DNA from: Hoylesella buccalis ATCC 35310
GTDB lineage: Bacteria; Bacteroidota; Bacteroidia; Bacteroidales; Bacteroidaceae
NCBI RefSeq assembly: GCF_025151385.1
Contig: NZ_CP102287.1
Location: 372,001 to 436,000, forward strand
Direction of reading: 5' to 3'
DNA length: 64,000 nucleotides
The translations under genes and the position numbers were made by a program. The notes beneath the pieces are model-generated. The model did not search any database, was not told the origin of the DNA, and saw nothing but the letters and a program-made list of their open reading frames with translations. This document shows, one piece after another, positions 1,139 through 57,613 of this stretch. Positions within the stretch are counted from its first letter, which is position 1. Each line of letters starts with the position of its first letter.

Positions 1139-1320
1139 AGGTTTTTGCAACAACGAATGGAACAGATGAAATAACACGAGTCAATAAACAAGGATGCTTG
1201 ATTGGTTTAATTCGTTGTTAAACAATTACTTAACAAGAAATAATAGGAAAGTGCATTGAGTGGTAGTCCCATATCTTTGCACTTTCCCATTTTCTTACTT
1301 TTGCTTTCCGTTTCCAATCT

Positions 1321-1408
1321 CCATGACTTTAGACCCCAATGTCATTGACTTTGCAAGCCAATCTGTATGACTTTGCAGCCCAAAGTCAATGAGTTTGGAT
1401 GCTGTGTA
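1321..1408. repeat. 22-bp-period intergenic array, locus 1 (4 units)
   Basis: Four 22-bp units start at 1321, 1343, 1365 and 1387 in exact phase. Each carries a version of CAATGACTTTG, then five variable bases, then CAAAGT or a relative. The joint between units approaches the palindrome CAAAGTCAATGACTTTG. The array lies in the 420-bp gap between the convergent phosphate-permease and phosphatase genes. The same unit recurs near 33.5, 43.7 and 57.5 kb. Apart from this array and the terminator at 1461-1512, the gap 1139-1558 shows nothing recognisable. Confidence 0.8.
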
Positions 1409-5544: not shown

Positions 5545-5592
5545 ACTGATGTGTTGTTAAATCCATTCAGACTTAATGTCTAAACTATTTGT

Positions 5593-5669
5593 TGGCGGTG
5601 CGTACGAGACTCGAACTCGTGACCTCCTGCGTGACAGGCAGGCATTCTAACCAACTGAACTAACGCACC
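5593..5669 (-). tRNA. tRNA-Asp(GTC), copy 2 of tandem pair
   Basis: The minus strand reads GGTGCGTTAGTTCAGTTGG at the 5' end, an anticodon loop CTGTCAC between CCTGC and GCAGG, a T-loop GTTCGAGTC and ACGCACC-G-CCA at the end. CCA is encoded. The gene is 77 nt and identical to its neighbour. Confidence 0.97.
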
Positions 5670-5692
5670 AAGTGCATGGAGAAATGATTGGT

Positions 5693-5769
5693 TGGCGGTG
5701 CGTACGAGACTCGAACTCGTGACCTCCTGCGTGACAGGCAGGCATTCTAACCAACTGAACTAACGCACC
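5693..5769 (-). tRNA. tRNA-Asp(GTC), copy 1 of tandem pair
   Basis: Sequence identical to the gene at 5593-5669, 23 bp upstream of it on the same strand, with encoded CCA. The two are probably one transcript that ends at the terminator at 5510-5544. Confidence 0.97.
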
Positions 5770-13884: not shown

Positions 13885-14406
13885 GGTAGACCATCATTTG
13901 GCAGCTTCGTCTTGGCGCTTCTCCTCTTTGTTTCTAGTGCCATCATGCCACACCCCACGGCATTTCTTCATGAGGGTTAGGTGATTGTATTGTTTGGTGT
14001 GACTTATCTTTTTACATCTTTTCTGTTTATTCGCTAATCGGCATCCATTTTTTAGCTAGCACTTAAATCGTCATAAAGAATGATAATTCTTGTGGCTATT
14101 ATTCGATTTTTGTTATCTTTGCATAAGATAGGCAGCGCCTTAGCAAAGTAAACAAGCTTTCTTTGCATTCGACTTGCACTATCTTTGCATAAAACAGGCT
14201 ACACCTCAGCAATTCAAACGTAGTTTGACTGCTTTCGGTTTGCGCTGTTTTTGCATAAGATAGGCTGCGCCTTAACAAAGTAAGTAAACTTCCTTTGCCT
14301 TCGGCTTGCACTATCTTTGCAAATAACGAACGGTGTGTGTTTTGGTAGAATATAGTTCTGTCATCTGCATGCTTCCTAAGTCTTTTATAAAAACAAGGGT
14401 TAAGGT
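13885..14406. other. Long upstream region of the alpha-2-macroglobulin operon
   Basis: No gene is supported. Positions 13885-14100 show nothing specific beyond a weak hairpin GATGGT...ACCATC at the end of the lipoprotein gene. The rest is the 66-bp repeat block described separately. Minus-strand frames across it (LLRRSLSYAK-type repeats) are artefacts of the repeat. Confidence 0.6.
14108..14325 (+). repeat. Four -7 elements carried on exact 66-bp tandem repeats
   Basis: TATCTTTG at 14114, 14180 and 14312, and TGTTTTTG at 14246, lie exactly 66 bp apart, each followed by GCA and, in the first three, TAAGATAGGC or a variant. The filler between them (GGCTGCGCC, TTAGCAAAGTAA, CTTTGCATTCGACTTGC) is also repeated with about 75-85 percent identity by eye. 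Three of the four match the Bacteroidota -7 consensus, so the block may be a multi-start promoter for the operon at 14407. Similar repeats are scattered in Prevotella genomes as far as I recall. Confidence 0.75.
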
Positions 14407-21889: not shown

Positions 21890-22036
21890 GTTTTAAAGGA
21901 GTTAATGGGAGTAAAATGGGAGTTATCGGGAGTAAACGGACATTTGTCTGATAACTCCCTCTTAACTCCTAATAACTCCAGTTAACTCCCATTCTAGTCC
22001 CCACTTACTCCCATCTTAACTCCCGCTAACTCCTGA
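21890..22036. repeat. GGGAGTTA/TAACTCCC inverted-repeat cluster
   Basis: The gap between convergent ispH and tcdA is filled with repeats of GGGAGT(T)AA on the left and their complement TAACTCC(C) on the right, at least four and six copies. A perfect 10-bp stem GGGAGTTATC (21918-21927) / GATAACTCCC (21950-21959) is the best single hairpin. Likely a transcription barrier for both genes. Confidence 0.65.
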
Positions 22037-23929: not shown

Positions 23930-24404
23930 AGTAGATACAATATTTGCCTGGGAGAATTCTGTTATCGTGTTAGAAAGATTTTTACAAACATGTTTCCGTG
24001 CTTGGCTTATTCGCAAACCACCAAGTAGTTCGACGTAAACACGCGAAATATGGGCGATTTGTATAAATCAAAGTGAATCAGGGTGTTGTGGAATTAGAGG
24101 TGAAAAAACAGGTTTTTTCACCCCCGATTTTTCCCAAAAAAGCCAAGAAAAACGGTGAAAAAACAATGCAGTTGAGCCGCAATAGCATACAGATAGTGCG
24201 GCAATATGTATGCTATTGCCGCACTATCTCAATGACTTTATGCTAAAACAACCTATTTGTTGGAAATAAAAGTCATGTAGGCGTGTCGTTTGCCTATTGA
24301 TTTTTTCTATTTCATCATTTTACGATGGCCATTTTTTTGTCATTTATAAGGACTAAAATAGGTCAGAAGGGAGATGATGGTTTTTGACAGATGAAAATAC
24401 AAAC
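23930..24404. other. 475-bp convergent gap with several hairpins
   Basis: No gene is supported. It contains GGTGAAAAAA...TTTTTTCACC (about 24101-24124, 10 bp) and the competing hairpins at 24179-24229. The rest shows nothing recognisable. Confidence 0.55.
24179..24229. other. Two mutually exclusive hairpins sharing one arm
   Basis: A 16-bp perfect stem pairs 24191-24206 with 24214-24229 (AGATAGTGCGGCAATA and its complement, loop TGTATGC). A 12-bp perfect stem pairs 24179-24190 with 24208-24219 (GCAATAGCATAC and its complement). The downstream arms overlap, so both cannot form together. Located past the 3' ends of both flanking genes. Confidence 0.7.
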
Positions 24405-33466: not shown

Positions 33467-33525
33467 ATGAATACAGGTATCTGTAAGTAGTTGATAAACA
33501 GTAGGTCTTGAAGCTCATCTAAAAG

Positions 33526-33635
33526 CATTGGTTTTGCAGTCCAAAGTCAATGAGTTTGCCCGTTAAAGTCAATGCAATTGCCCATTAAAGTCAATGAGTT
33601 TGCCAAGCATGTCCAATGTGAAGATTCAAAATCGA
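33526..33635. repeat. 22-bp-period intergenic array, locus 2 (5 units)
   Basis: Units begin at 33526, 33548, 33570, 33592 and 33614. They carry CATTGGTTTTG, CAATGAGTTTG, CAATGCAATTG, CAATGAGTTTG and a decayed CAATGTGAAG, with CCAAAGT or TTAAAGT closing the first three. The array lies after the rprXY terminator and about 70 bp before the nhaD promoter. Same consensus and phase as the arrays near 1.3, 43.7 and 57.5 kb. Apart from the terminator, array and promoter, the 345-bp gap holds nothing else. Confidence 0.8.
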
Positions 33636-42592: not shown

Positions 42593-43567
42593 ATGCCGTC
42601 ACTCAAAGAGATTAAGACACGTATTGCCAGTGTCAAGAATACCCGAAAAATCACCAGTGCGATGAAGATGGTTGCATCTAGCAAACTTCATCATGCACAG
42701 GTCAGAGTAGAGAATATGCTCCCATACGAAAATATGTTGGAGCATATTCTTAAGTCATTTCTTATTTCTACACCAGATGCTGATACGCCATTTGATGCCG
42801 TACGTCCTAACTTGAAACGCGTGGCATTGGTGGTTTTTTCTTCAAACAGCAGTCTATGCGGTAGTTTTAACATTAATGTGTTGAAAATGATGCAACAGGC
42901 TGTTGAAGATTACCATCGTCTCGGAATTGATAAGGATAACATTATTATTTATCCTATTGGCCGAAAAGTTGCAGAGCGTGCTGTAAAGATGGGGTATAAA
43001 ACTGCTGGGAATTTCGTTGAATTGGCTGATAAGCCTAATGCACAGACCTGCCAAAAGATTGCTCATGAAATTGCACAGAAGTTCCTTAACGGTGAGTATG
43101 ACAAGGTCGAGATGATATATCATCACTTTAAAAGTGTAGGTTCTCAGATTCTGACTCGTAAAACCTTCTTACCCATTGACTTGTCAACCGAGATTGGATG
43201 GGGAAATGATCGTGATTTGAAATCTTCTTACACGACGGCAAGAGCACAGGAATATCTGAGGAAAAAGAATCTAAAAGTTGAAAGGAAAGAGATAGATGTC
43301 CAGCCATTGAACGATGACTTCATTGTAGAGCCTGATGTCAAGACTGTATTGGGCACCTTGATACCCAATCAATTACACCTCATGTTCTATACGGCATTGC
43401 TAGATAGCAACGCAAGTGAGCATGCCGCTCGAATGGTCGCTATGCAGACAGCTACCGACAATGCAGATGACTTGCTTCGTTCACTCAATTTACAGTATAA
43501 CAAGGGTAGACAGCAAGCCATTACAAACGAGTTGCTGGATATCGTTGGCGGGACTATCAATAACTAA
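42593..43567 (+). CDS. atpG: ATP synthase F1 subunit gamma
   Basis: 324 residues, longer than E. coli (287), with extra central residues (LLISTPDADTPFDAVRPN). N-terminal helix MPSLKEIKTRIASVKNTRKI, then ITSAMKMVASSKL, and C-terminal ARMVAMQTATDNADDLL and LNLQYNKGRQQAITNELLDI form the rotor shaft coiled coil. Last gene of the operon; begins three bases after atpA and is followed by a strong terminator. Confidence 0.97.
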   Translation: MPSLKEIKTRIASVKNTRKITSAMKMVASSKLHHAQVRVENMLPYENMLEHILKSFLISTPDADTPFDAVRPNLKRVALVVFSSNSSLCGSFNINVLKMMQQAVEDYHRLGIDKDNIIIYPIGRKVAERAVKMGYKTAGNFVELADKPNAQTCQKIAHEIAQKFLNGEYDKVEMIYHHFKSVGSQILTRKTFLPIDLSTEIGWGNDRDLKSSYTTARAQEYLRKKNLKVERKEIDVQPLNDDFIVEPDVKTVLGTLIPNQLHLMFYTALLDSNASEHAARMVAMQTATDNADDLLRSLNLQYNKGRQQAITNELLDIVGGTINN

Positions 43568-43587: not shown

Positions 43588-43631
43588 AAAAAAGTTCGAG
43601 ACAACACAATGATGTTATCTCGAACTTTTTT
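43588..43631 (+). terminator. Intrinsic terminator of the ATP synthase operon
   Basis: A perfect 14-bp stem AAAAAAGTTCGAGA (43588-43601) with TCTCGAACTTTTTT (43618-43631), immediately after atpG. The A- and T-rich arms make it bidirectional. Confidence 0.92.
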
Positions 43632-43683
43632 GGTTTATGTTTTGAGTACCAAAAGTATACCCAAACAGACGAGTGCTCAAAGT

Positions 43684-43947
43684 CTATGCTATTGGTGCTC
43701 AAAGTCTATGCTATTGGTGCTCAAAGTCTATGCTATTGGTGCTCAAAGTCTATGCTATTGGTGCTCAAAGTCTAAGCTATTGGTGCTCAAAGTCTAAGTT
43801 ATTAACACACCATGTCTAAGCTATTAACACGCAAAGTCTAAGTTATTAACACGCAAAGTCAATGCTATTAGTGCTCAATGTCAATGCTATAAAAGCTCAA
43901 ACTCATTGACTTTGGTAAGCAAAGTCAATGAGTTTGAAGTCTCTTTT
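43684..43947. repeat. 22-bp-period intergenic array, locus 3 (12 units)
   Basis: Twelve units start at 43684 and every 22 bp to 43926 with no phase slip. The first four are identical (CTATGCTATTGG, TGCTC, AAAGT). The middle ones drift (CTAAGTTATTAACAC), and the last two return to CATTGACTTTG and CAATGAGTTTG. The end is a perfect 16-bp inverted repeat, CAAACTCATTGACTTT (43899-43914) and AAAGTCAATGAGTTTG (43921-43936) around GGTAAGC (spacer 6-7 nt). No spacers, no cas genes, no coding frame (22 is not a multiple of 3). It sits between the ATP synthase terminator and tRNA-Ser. Confidence 0.92.
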
Positions 43948-43949
43948 GT

Positions 43950-44040
43950 TGGCGGAAGATGAGGGATTCAAACCCCCGATACCCAAAAAGGGTATACCGG
44001 ATTTCGAGTCCAGCGCATTCGGTCACTCTGCCAATCTTCC
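43950..44040 (-). tRNA. tRNA-Ser(CGA)
   Basis: 91 nt with a long variable arm (TATACCC-TTTTT-GGGTATC), as in type II tRNAs. 5' acceptor GGAAGAT pairs with ATCTTCC, discriminator G, encoded CCA. Anticodon stem CTGGA/TCCGG encloses loop CTCGAAA, anticodon CGA, reading UCG codons. Confidence 0.96.
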
Positions 44041-44115: not shown

Positions 44116-45262
44116 TGTAGAGTCAACCAGCAAGTGCAAAATTACAAAACGTGTTTGAAGAATTCTCGTTTTGGTGTAGAAAAGTTTAATTTTTCTCTCG
44201 GTCTTTCGTTCAATTTCTTTTGTATCGACATAATTCTCTTGTCTGTGTAATGTTCAAACGAATCCTTTTTCGGTATATATTGTCTGATCAGCTTATTTGT
44301 ATTCTCAATAGCTCCCTTCTGCCATGAGCAATATGGATCAGCGAAGTACACGGGCACGCCTAAGAACTTGGTAATGTCCTTATGTGCCGCAAATTCAGGC
44401 CCGTTGTCTGTTGTAATGGTCTTCAGACAATCCTTGTATGGCAGCAGCAGTTTCCTGACCACCTTTGCCAGGGGCTTTGACTGCTTCCCGAATGGCAGTT
44501 TCTGCATGAGCAGCATATTGGTGGACTTCTCCACCAGCGTGAGTATGGCGTGCTGGGCAGGGTCTACGATCAAGTCCATCTCAAAATCCCCGAATCTCTT
44601 CCCGTCAACTTCCTTGCTTCTTTCATGGATGCTCACCCTGTCCTTGATTGGAAGATGTCTGCCCTTGGGACGATGCCTGTATTTCATCTTATGCCTTGTG
44701 TGCCTGGCAAGTTCCCCTGTCGTGTCATTGTGGATGATGTTATAGATGGACTGGTGGGACACCTTTATCCCCTCGTTCTTGCGCAGATAACCAGATATTT
44801 GTCTTGGAGACCACTGGTCATTGATGATATATTCCTTGATTCTCCAGACCAATTCGTCGGAGAGTTTGGAGTTCTTTACCGTTCTATTTCTGCGCTGCAT
44901 AGCCATGTCGTGCGCCTTTGTCCAGATATACTTTCCTGATGGCGTGCTGTTGTTCTTTAGCTCACGACTGATCGTAGCTTCACTCGTACCCACAATGAGG
45001 GCAATTTCTTTTCTCTTTATTTTCTTTTGGAGTAAGGCGAAAATTTGCGACCTTTGCTCCGAGGTTAATTGATGATACATATACAATACAAAGTTAATTA
45101 ATCTTTGGGAGACTGCGGTCTCCCTTTTGCTTTTTTTGTATTGCTGATTGTGCTCTTCGGGGGCTTCGCGCCCCCGGCCGCATGGCAACCTCCGCGGTGT
45201 TTTTCATGTTTTTTGTACAATCCAAACACCAACAATTTTTGCACTTCGATTTTGAATCTTTA
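44116..45262 (-). mobile_element. IS30-family element, copy 2
   Basis: Same 1147-bp sequence as 7911-9057, offset by exactly 36205, same orientation. No clean target duplication: ATC lies left and GCA right; a GCAT is present on both sides but offset by one base on the left. This contrasts with the GCG duplication of copy 1 and may reflect recombination or a variable end. Confidence 0.88.
44142..45080 (-). CDS. IS30-family transposase (copy 2)
   Basis: 312 residues, identical to the protein at 7937-8875, with the same ATG choice (MYHQLTSEQR) and intact DDE residues (FEMDLIV, TTDNGPEF, AIENTNKLIRQY). The complete identity of the two copies indicates recent transposition in this lineage. Neighbouring genes: tRNA-Ser downstream and a small secreted-protein gene beyond the right end. 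Confidence 0.93.
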   Translation of the reverse strand: MYHQLTSEQRSQIFALLQKKIKRKEIALIVGTSEATISRELKNNSTPSGKYIWTKAHDMAMQRRNRTVKNSKLSDELVWRIKEYIINDQWSPRQISGYLRKNEGIKVSHQSIYNIIHNDTTGELARHTRHKMKYRHRPKGRHLPIKDRVSIHERSKEVDGKRFGDFEMDLIVDPAQHAILTLVEKSTNMLLMQKLPFGKQSKPLAKVVRKLLLPYKDCLKTITTDNGPEFAAHKDITKFLGVPVYFADPYCSWQKGAIENTNKLIRQYIPKKDSFEHYTDKRIMSIQKKLNERPREKLNFSTPKREFFKHVL

Positions 45263-57503: not shown

Positions 57504-57613
57504 CATTGAGGTGCGTAATCAAACTCAATGCCTTTGATGTCTAAAAGCATGGAGATTGGCAGACAAAGTCAACGTGTTTGGACGCCAAACCCAATGACTT
57601 TGTTTTCAGACCA
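57504..57613. repeat. 22-bp-period intergenic array, locus 4 (5 units)
   Basis: Units begin at 57504, 57526, 57548, 57570 and 57592, all in phase: CATTGAGGTG, CAATGCCTTTG, CATGGAGATTGG, CAACGTGTTTGG, CAATGACTTTG, with AAACT, AAAAG, CAAAGT and CAAACC at the unit ends. It fills the gap between the convergent regulator and PAP2 genes. Confidence 0.75.

Follow-up and report, generated by a model that had tools for sequence, protein, structure and literature searches.

Intergenic arrays of 17-bp dyad units on a 22-bp grid in the chromosome of Hoylesella buccalis, a possible platform for a dimeric protein

Between the ATP synthase gene atpG and a tRNA-Ser gene, a short unit is repeated twelve times without a slip of phase and without a reading frame. 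The locus raises the question of what such an array is, whether it has relatives elsewhere in the chromosome, and what could keep its geometry. It lies in a stretch of 64,000 nucleotides that was analyzed as a whole and is called the window below.

The array between atpG and tRNA-Ser

The locus contains the following features.

42593..43567, plus strand: atpG, ATP synthase gamma (PF00231, by Pfam), upstream of the 12-unit array
43588..43632, plus strand: terminator-like inverted repeat followed by a T-run, between atpG and the array (by eye)
43678..43936, no strand: 12-unit array on the register 43678 + 22n, each unit a 17-bp quasi-palindromic core, with 5-bp spacers (Tandem Repeats Finder and weight matrix)
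43898..43936, no strand: last two units, a perfect 17-bp inverted repeat around GTAAG (arms 43898-43914 and 43920-43936)
43950..44040, minus strand: tRNA-Ser(CGA), convergent with atpG, after the array (tRNA call)

An earlier note on this DNA had described twelve units in strict 22-bp phase. The weight matrix and direct inspection confirmed 12 units with zero phase slips, and the register was placed at 43678 + 22n. Tandem Repeats Finder reported a period of 22, 9.9 copies and 0% indels over 43673-43890, and the self-match of the array, computed on a stretch beginning one base late, was 0.83 at lag 22 versus 0.18-0.37 at the remaining lags between 15 and 30. Units 1-4 are identical. The inverted repeat that the note had placed in front of tRNA-Ser, at 16 bp, is present and is perfect over 17 bp. 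The neighboring genes atpA and atpG were identified via Pfam, atpG lying behind atpA, and a scripted scan likewise flagged a terminator-like site in the interval between atpG and the array. The near-identical repeats and long unique spacers of a CRISPR are absent here, the spacers being just 5 bp and the units diverging widely. Close behind tRNA-Ser, on the minus strand (44145-45188), lies a gene with HTH_38 and HTH_32 domains, presumably an IS30-type transposase.

When unit numbers were compared between relatives, as the note had proposed, the atpG locus was found to carry 12 units in this genome, 8 in Prevotella sp. BV3P1 (AtpG 94% identical) and 4 in the Hoylesella buccalis ATCC 35310 entry (AtpG 97% identical). 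The last two units of the array (43898..43936) are common to H. buccalis and BV3P1 with few changes, and both arrays of the 21-kb atpG region are at the same place in the two. At the 33.5-kb locus of BV3P1, the fourth unit is one base off phase. Most simply, the 12 units would have arisen by local tandem expansion of a four-unit ancestor, a direction of change suggested by these sequence comparisons. Among 23 same-genus atpG loci compared by eye (that of G583 stops at a contig end), four in-phase units were seen in G604 (75%), four units with other words in G431 (68%), and another array about 370 bp downstream in G017 and G476; no such array was seen at the remaining loci of the 23. The weight matrix of this genome found no array in the atpG regions of L252, L253, L256, L259, L261, L270 and L287. 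At the same locus in G514 (L229), tandem copies of a repeat of about 41 bp, of the GGTTCCCCGCGGCGGGAAATGGCCGCTGG type, were observed downstream of atpG.

The note had also counted three other loci of the window with the same unit. The family is indeed there, with four such loci, one of them weak:

1315..1397, no strand: class 1 array, 4 units, convergent intergenic (weight matrix)
24158..24240, no strand: weak, class 2-like array, 4 units (weight matrix)
33520..33602, no strand: class 1 array, 4 units, flanked by a response regulator gene and a CitMHS gene (weight matrix, Pfam)
57520..57602, no strand: class 1 array, 4 units, convergent intergenic (weight matrix)

The array at 33520..33602 occupies the same place in L249, L250 and L251. 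The 17-bp palindrome that the note had read at the joint of the units has no exact copy in the window; with at most 3 mismatches, it gave 18 strand matches versus 0.40 expected.

Unit, classes and spacing of the arrays in this genome

The genome is a single contig of 3.31 Mb. A genome-wide check extended the family beyond the window: 279 two-unit places with at most 3 mismatches were found, overlapping places of one array being counted separately, and the reversed control pattern gave 0. An iterated weight matrix was applied to 1.244 Mb, consisting of 59 evenly spaced 20-kb stretches and the window, and returned 446 units with scores above 8 versus 75 in one shuffle. The distances between these hits fall on a grid of 22 bp (144 cases), 44 (96), 66 (51), 88 (18) and 110 (6), while each distance up to 119 bp off the grid occurs at most twice. 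The unit is a 17-bp quasi-palindrome, CAA NNN C NNN G NNN TTG, followed by a 5-bp spacer. In a sample that is 81% coding by our own codon-usage calls, none of the 64 array calls (one array in L135 being counted twice) extends more than 15 bp into a called gene. The sample thereby supports the note's picture of an intergenic family in strict two-turn phase, and by extrapolation the genome would hold about 170 arrays.

Two classes of arrays can be distinguished. Class 1, defined by median unit scores of 16 or above, is made of CAAAGTCAATGAGTTTG words and comprises 59 of the 93 distinct arrays. With weak ends trimmed, 45 of these 59 have four units, a count that takes in class 1 only and leaves aside the other 34 arrays. 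Four units are therefore the rule, and the 12-unit form described in the note is an exception. Part of the remainder forms class 2, with about five units and position-dependent words such as TAAAAGCATTGCTTTTA (by eye); it is weaker and often picked up as 2-3 units. Neighboring units share half-sites above chance (0.29 left and 0.40 right versus 0.155). The note had offered selection on spacing or unequal exchange as causes of the pattern, and both have left traces: the grid is kept, neighbors share half-sites, and relatives carry 4, 8 or 12 units.

The note had likened the palindromic joint to an operator for a dimeric protein. The units do have dyad symmetry; a perfect palindrome is not what they keep, as identical half-sites are if anything avoided, being found in 0.104 of 163 distinct cores versus 0.155 if the half-sites were independent (207 of 5000 shuffles were as low). 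The dyad symmetry in this genome is thus not accompanied by covariation of the half-sites. Units of both orientations occur within 41 of the 59 class 1 arrays. These findings fit a dimer that reads the two half-sites of a unit independently.

The terminal flanks of class 1 arrays are A-rich, outward position 2 being an A in 76 of 118 cases, and the internal spacers are G+C-rich, so that the elements seem to have marked ends. The flanks carry at most 0.36 bit of information per position, which leaves no conserved element of about 188 bp. The 59 class 1 arrays were also searched for inverted ends outside the units, and flank identity was 6.12/20 within an array versus 5.95 between arrays. The search for target duplications in the 59 arrays gave 2 cases for k=2 (1.86 expected), 1 for k=5 (0.24 expected) and 0 for k=3, 4 and 6-9.

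Two contiguous blocks were examined for placement. Here class 1 arrays are depleted between divergent genes (2 of 37 versus 72 of 332 background regions, p 0.017) and somewhat favored between convergent ones (15 of 37 versus 81 of 332, p 0.047). Neither trend is seen among the 20 other arrays of the blocks (p 0.41 and 1.0). Relative to co-directional genes, the raw counts of array orientation are 15 versus 6, with 7 undecided and no significance value attached. Only 8 of 50 class 1 cases have a terminator-like hairpin separating the array from the gene end, and transcripts may therefore read through into the arrays. In 18 of 24 class 1 cases, a TAnnTTTG box separates the array from the 5' end of the gene downstream; this is a raw count without a chance control.

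The same two blocks, 1.03 Mb with 57 arrays, show a minimum spacing of about 7 kb. Only 2 of the 55 gaps are shorter than 7 kb, one of them connecting two two-unit hits, versus a mean of 16.4 and a minimum of 6 in 10,000 draws of random intergenic placement matched for gene orientation; an unmatched test was also run. Between 7 and 16 kb lie 34 of the 55 gaps, and in the stretches examined arrays occur intergenically about every 7 to 20 kb. Integrase-like genes were found in 4 of the 55 gaps, the three longest (127.7, 61.6 and 49.0 kb) among them; the queries were three integrases taken from the long gaps themselves, and the 4 gaps make up about a quarter of the inter-array DNA. For the longest gap (G000:C1:1302678-1430362, L175-L179), 10 of 51 larger reading frames were scanned, and these included an integrase, DUF4138, which we take to be the TraN family of conjugative transposons, and TssC. 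This array-free stretch of 128 kb is probably an integrative conjugative element carrying a T6SS. In the other two longest gaps, 10 of 53 reading frames were scanned and two were integrases.

Other species and known repeats

The frame of the unit was matched in 58 of 249 same-genus genomes, this one included, with at least 19 hits in 18 of them. The words vary by species and the geometry is unchanged. A word-free lag scan of contiguous blocks peaked at 22 and then 44 in both G476 and G587, and in G476 several unrelated words, for example AAATATGACGTCATATTT and TTACACGTAA, sit on one 22-bp grid. Three arrays of the near-perfect AAATATGACGTCATATTT palindrome were seen on this grid, at G476:C1:125722, 168406 and 208771. 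A set of 80 named atpG loci yielded 48 non-coding lag-22 arrays, spread over 32 loci. The dyad test was passed by 25 of these arrays, from 17 loci; the passing words include TTCCATGTCACATGGAA (H. loescheii), TGACCACGCCCTGGTCA (Hallella multisaccharivorax) and ATGAATGGCCTATTCAT (Xylanibacter muris). The word-free scan of the same 80 loci gave 52 peaks at lag 22, and 25 and 24 at lags 14 and 21, coding regions included. Over the 155 non-coding lag-22 arrays from all sources, dyad symmetry was 0.704 versus 0.561 for column shuffles, and 57% of them passed the test (p<=0.025) compared to 0-22% at other lags, except lag 18 (0.38, 8 arrays) and lag 24 (0.50, 6 arrays). Curvature from A-tracts was set aside as a common cause on the words alone, because those of some species, such as Hallella multisaccharivorax, have no A-tracts.

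The CAA/TTG pattern was matched in 27 of 393 genomes, this one included, and outside the genus its hits are single except in G193 (3) and G273 (2). The reversed control pattern gave 1-2 hits in nine genomes and 10 in G388, a genome of another family with a similar array. In ten selected same-genus genomes, the reversed pattern gave 9 to 52 hits, and the loci viewed had the same grid with other words, some of them partial. The reversed pattern is therefore a clean control for this genome but not for the genus. In the viral collection, the exact two-unit pattern was found in 25 contigs, 23 of them with one place (raw counts without a shuffled control). Among the contigs filed as viral, L343 has three identical units, and an IMG/VR contig carries four 22-bp units in phase, with Prevotella-like CAAATTC words (L340:1369-1451). 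Arrays of this kind may therefore occur in mobile DNA as well.

The spacing was followed into other genomes as well. Among the listed places of G431, G438 and G604, the pairs closer than 7 kb numbered 1 (6.2 expected), 0 (2.3) and 0 (3.2), the expectation ignoring contig ends and being too high for G604 with its 270 contigs. In G587 (27 peaks, coding repeats unfiltered), the smallest gaps were 6.6 to 8 kb apart from three below 600 bp. In G476, 59 unfiltered peaks in 400 kb left many gaps of 1 to 5 kb, and two arrays of one class lie only 1.4 kb apart (217066 and 218450), which indicates that the spacing rule is not general.

In the literature searched, with most subscription journals outside its scope, no published description of the 22-bp grid was found. 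The note knew of no name for the family, but a likely relative already has one, PINSR. According to the accessible part of its description, PINSR is a 188-bp intergenic repeat with 177 and 184 copies in two P. intermedia strains, has no terminal inverted repeats, shares about three-quarters of its places between the strains, is absent from most strain-specific CTns and MTns, and occurs also in P. nigrescens, P. falsenii and P. disiens, with H. pleuritidis, H. loescheii and H. marshii PCR-negative (PMC4755523). Being about three-quarters fixed in place and mostly outside conjugative transposons, it fits a resident chromosomal element. Class 1 here is likewise intergenic, of high copy number and without terminal inverted repeats. 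It differs in its length of about 83 bp, its words, its lack of a long conserved flank and its species, which lies outside the PINSR group; no 22-bp grid, dyad units or spacing are named in the accessible part of the PINSR description (PMC4755523). In G476, a class A element occurs at 38 places in 384 kb; its conserved stretch measures at least about 185 bp and contains five 22-bp units. In P. falsenii (L255), three arrays with class A-like words surround atpG. Set against the description of PINSR, these class A elements and the P. falsenii arrays are likely PINSR itself. The conserved stretch of class A starts near TTTTGTAAAGATAATTC in G476:C1:1-400000.

Other known systems share single properties with the arrays. 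The accessible text on the BrickBuilt MITE of Porphyromonas gingivalis, also of the Bacteroidales, describes an always intergenic element of 23-nt tandem units whose number varies between strains, with a leader and a tail bearing terminal inverted repeats and no spacer between units (PMC4596501). The arrays here have in common with it the intergenic place and short tandem units of varying number; they differ in having no terminal inverted repeats, 17+5 dyad units on 22 bp, about four units and long-range spacing. A MITE with ends of the BrickBuilt type is disfavored, since the 59 arrays have neither terminal inverted repeats nor target duplications above chance. REP and BIME elements are likewise intergenic palindromic repeats of high copy number, and in the part of the source available REPs at the 3' ends of ORFs are proposed to relieve transcription-driven supercoiling via gyrase (PMC3733652). 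The arrays here differ in their strict 22-bp phase and in showing no half-site covariation, and a RAYT-driven REP is disfavored since this genome has no Y1_Tnp match. The dispersed chromosomal dyad sites matS and parS, each read by a dimer, are single conserved sites, whereas here four-site arrays carry words that differ between species. Iterons are phased direct repeats of about two helical turns, but they sit at a plasmid origin and the present arrays at many intergenic places of the chromosome. Of the properties that mark a chromosome organizer, dispersed non-coding dyad sites and non-random spacing were both found in this genome, and the spacing fails in G476. We regard the arrays as a variant of dispersed intergenic repeats that is unusual in keeping its geometry while its words change and, in this genome, in its spacing.

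Possible functions

The reading that we tentatively favor, without giving it even odds, is that of a chromosome-wide intergenic family, usually of four 17-bp dyad sites, which may serve as a platform for a dimeric protein and help to organize the chromosome. One dimer would bind each 17-bp core and, with 22 bp being close to two helical turns, successive dimers would lie on one face of the helix. The row of dimers could then form a single nucleoprotein platform, which might set domain boundaries or anchor the nucleoid. The placement at the ends of transcription units, together with the spacing, points to such a domain or anchoring role rather than to regulation of single promoters. The rapid turnover of the words is hard to reconcile with one conserved regulator and counts against the platform. 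A broader version, which we hold to be rather doubtful, makes the arrays a chromosome ruler of the Prevotellaceae: four-dimer arrays, placed between transcription units about every 10 kb, would insulate domains, words and protein would be rewritten in each species with the 22-bp, 17+5 geometry fixed, PINSR would be one group's version, and the family would be defined by its geometry instead of its sequence.

The strongest rival is a short selfish mobile repeat, REP- or MITE-like, that settles between genes and avoids its other copies through target immunity, since it also explains the spacing; taken by itself it seems unlikely, though well within consideration. Intergenic placement, many copies and species-specific words agree with it, a mutual exclusion of about 7 kb is what immunity would produce, and one array lies in a contig filed as viral (L340). 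It has to contend with 59 arrays in which neither target duplications above chance nor inverted ends outside the units were found, and with arrays of the 21-kb atpG region that keep their place in H. buccalis and BV3P1. The RAYT domain Y1_Tnp (PF01797) gave 0 matches in this genome (G000), G438, G583, G604, G431 and G476; it is present in 5 of the 16 genomes searched, and the array-bearing G453, G514 and G587 have 1-2 matches.

The remaining explanations appear less probable. Ordinary operators, serving one or several large regulons of transcription factors, would account for dyad half-sites, phased sites and the TAnnTTTG promoter-like boxes counted without a chance control; such regulons do not predict a minimum spacing, and the convergent class 1 arrays, 15 of 37, have no flanking gene start, divergent regions being depleted. 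We consider operators improbable. Functionless tandem duplication that arose neutrally through slippage or unequal exchange is disfavored still more: it agrees with the identical units 1-4 and with the 4, 8 and 12 units in relatives, but not with the sharp four-unit mode, a dyad symmetry tied to lag 22, the long-range spacing or the same grid in many species. Least probable to us are RNA or single-strand hairpins acting as terminators, mRNA stabilizers or cruciforms. Dyad units, their position after genes and the near-perfect palindromes of several other species speak for hairpins, the half-site test having covered this genome only. Stem-loops kept by compensating changes are nevertheless disfavored in this genome, with identical half-sites less frequent than expected and Rfam at gathering thresholds returning only tRNAs in the window, and uncompensated half-site changes were seen by eye in the words of G431 and G604.

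If the arrays are bound as proposed, they would provide, for a large group of bacteria from the gut and mouth, a map of chromosome domains readable from sequence, and an example of a site family that changes its letters yet keeps its geometry. The unexplained PINSR repeat would then gain a likely inner structure and a wider family. Many fixed, countable and spaced arrays would make a boundary function accessible to deletion tests. If they are mobile, the 7-kb exclusion would represent target immunity in a repeat without visible ends.

Three further repeats were observed in the window. A separate intergenic array of TAACTCC words (21952-22033) has a period of 10-11 bp and also a lag of 22, two tRNA-Asp genes lie inside a 100-bp tandem repeat with 98% matching (5587-5769), and about three copies of a 66-bp repeat (14114-14321) lie upstream of a reading frame of 1843 amino acids.
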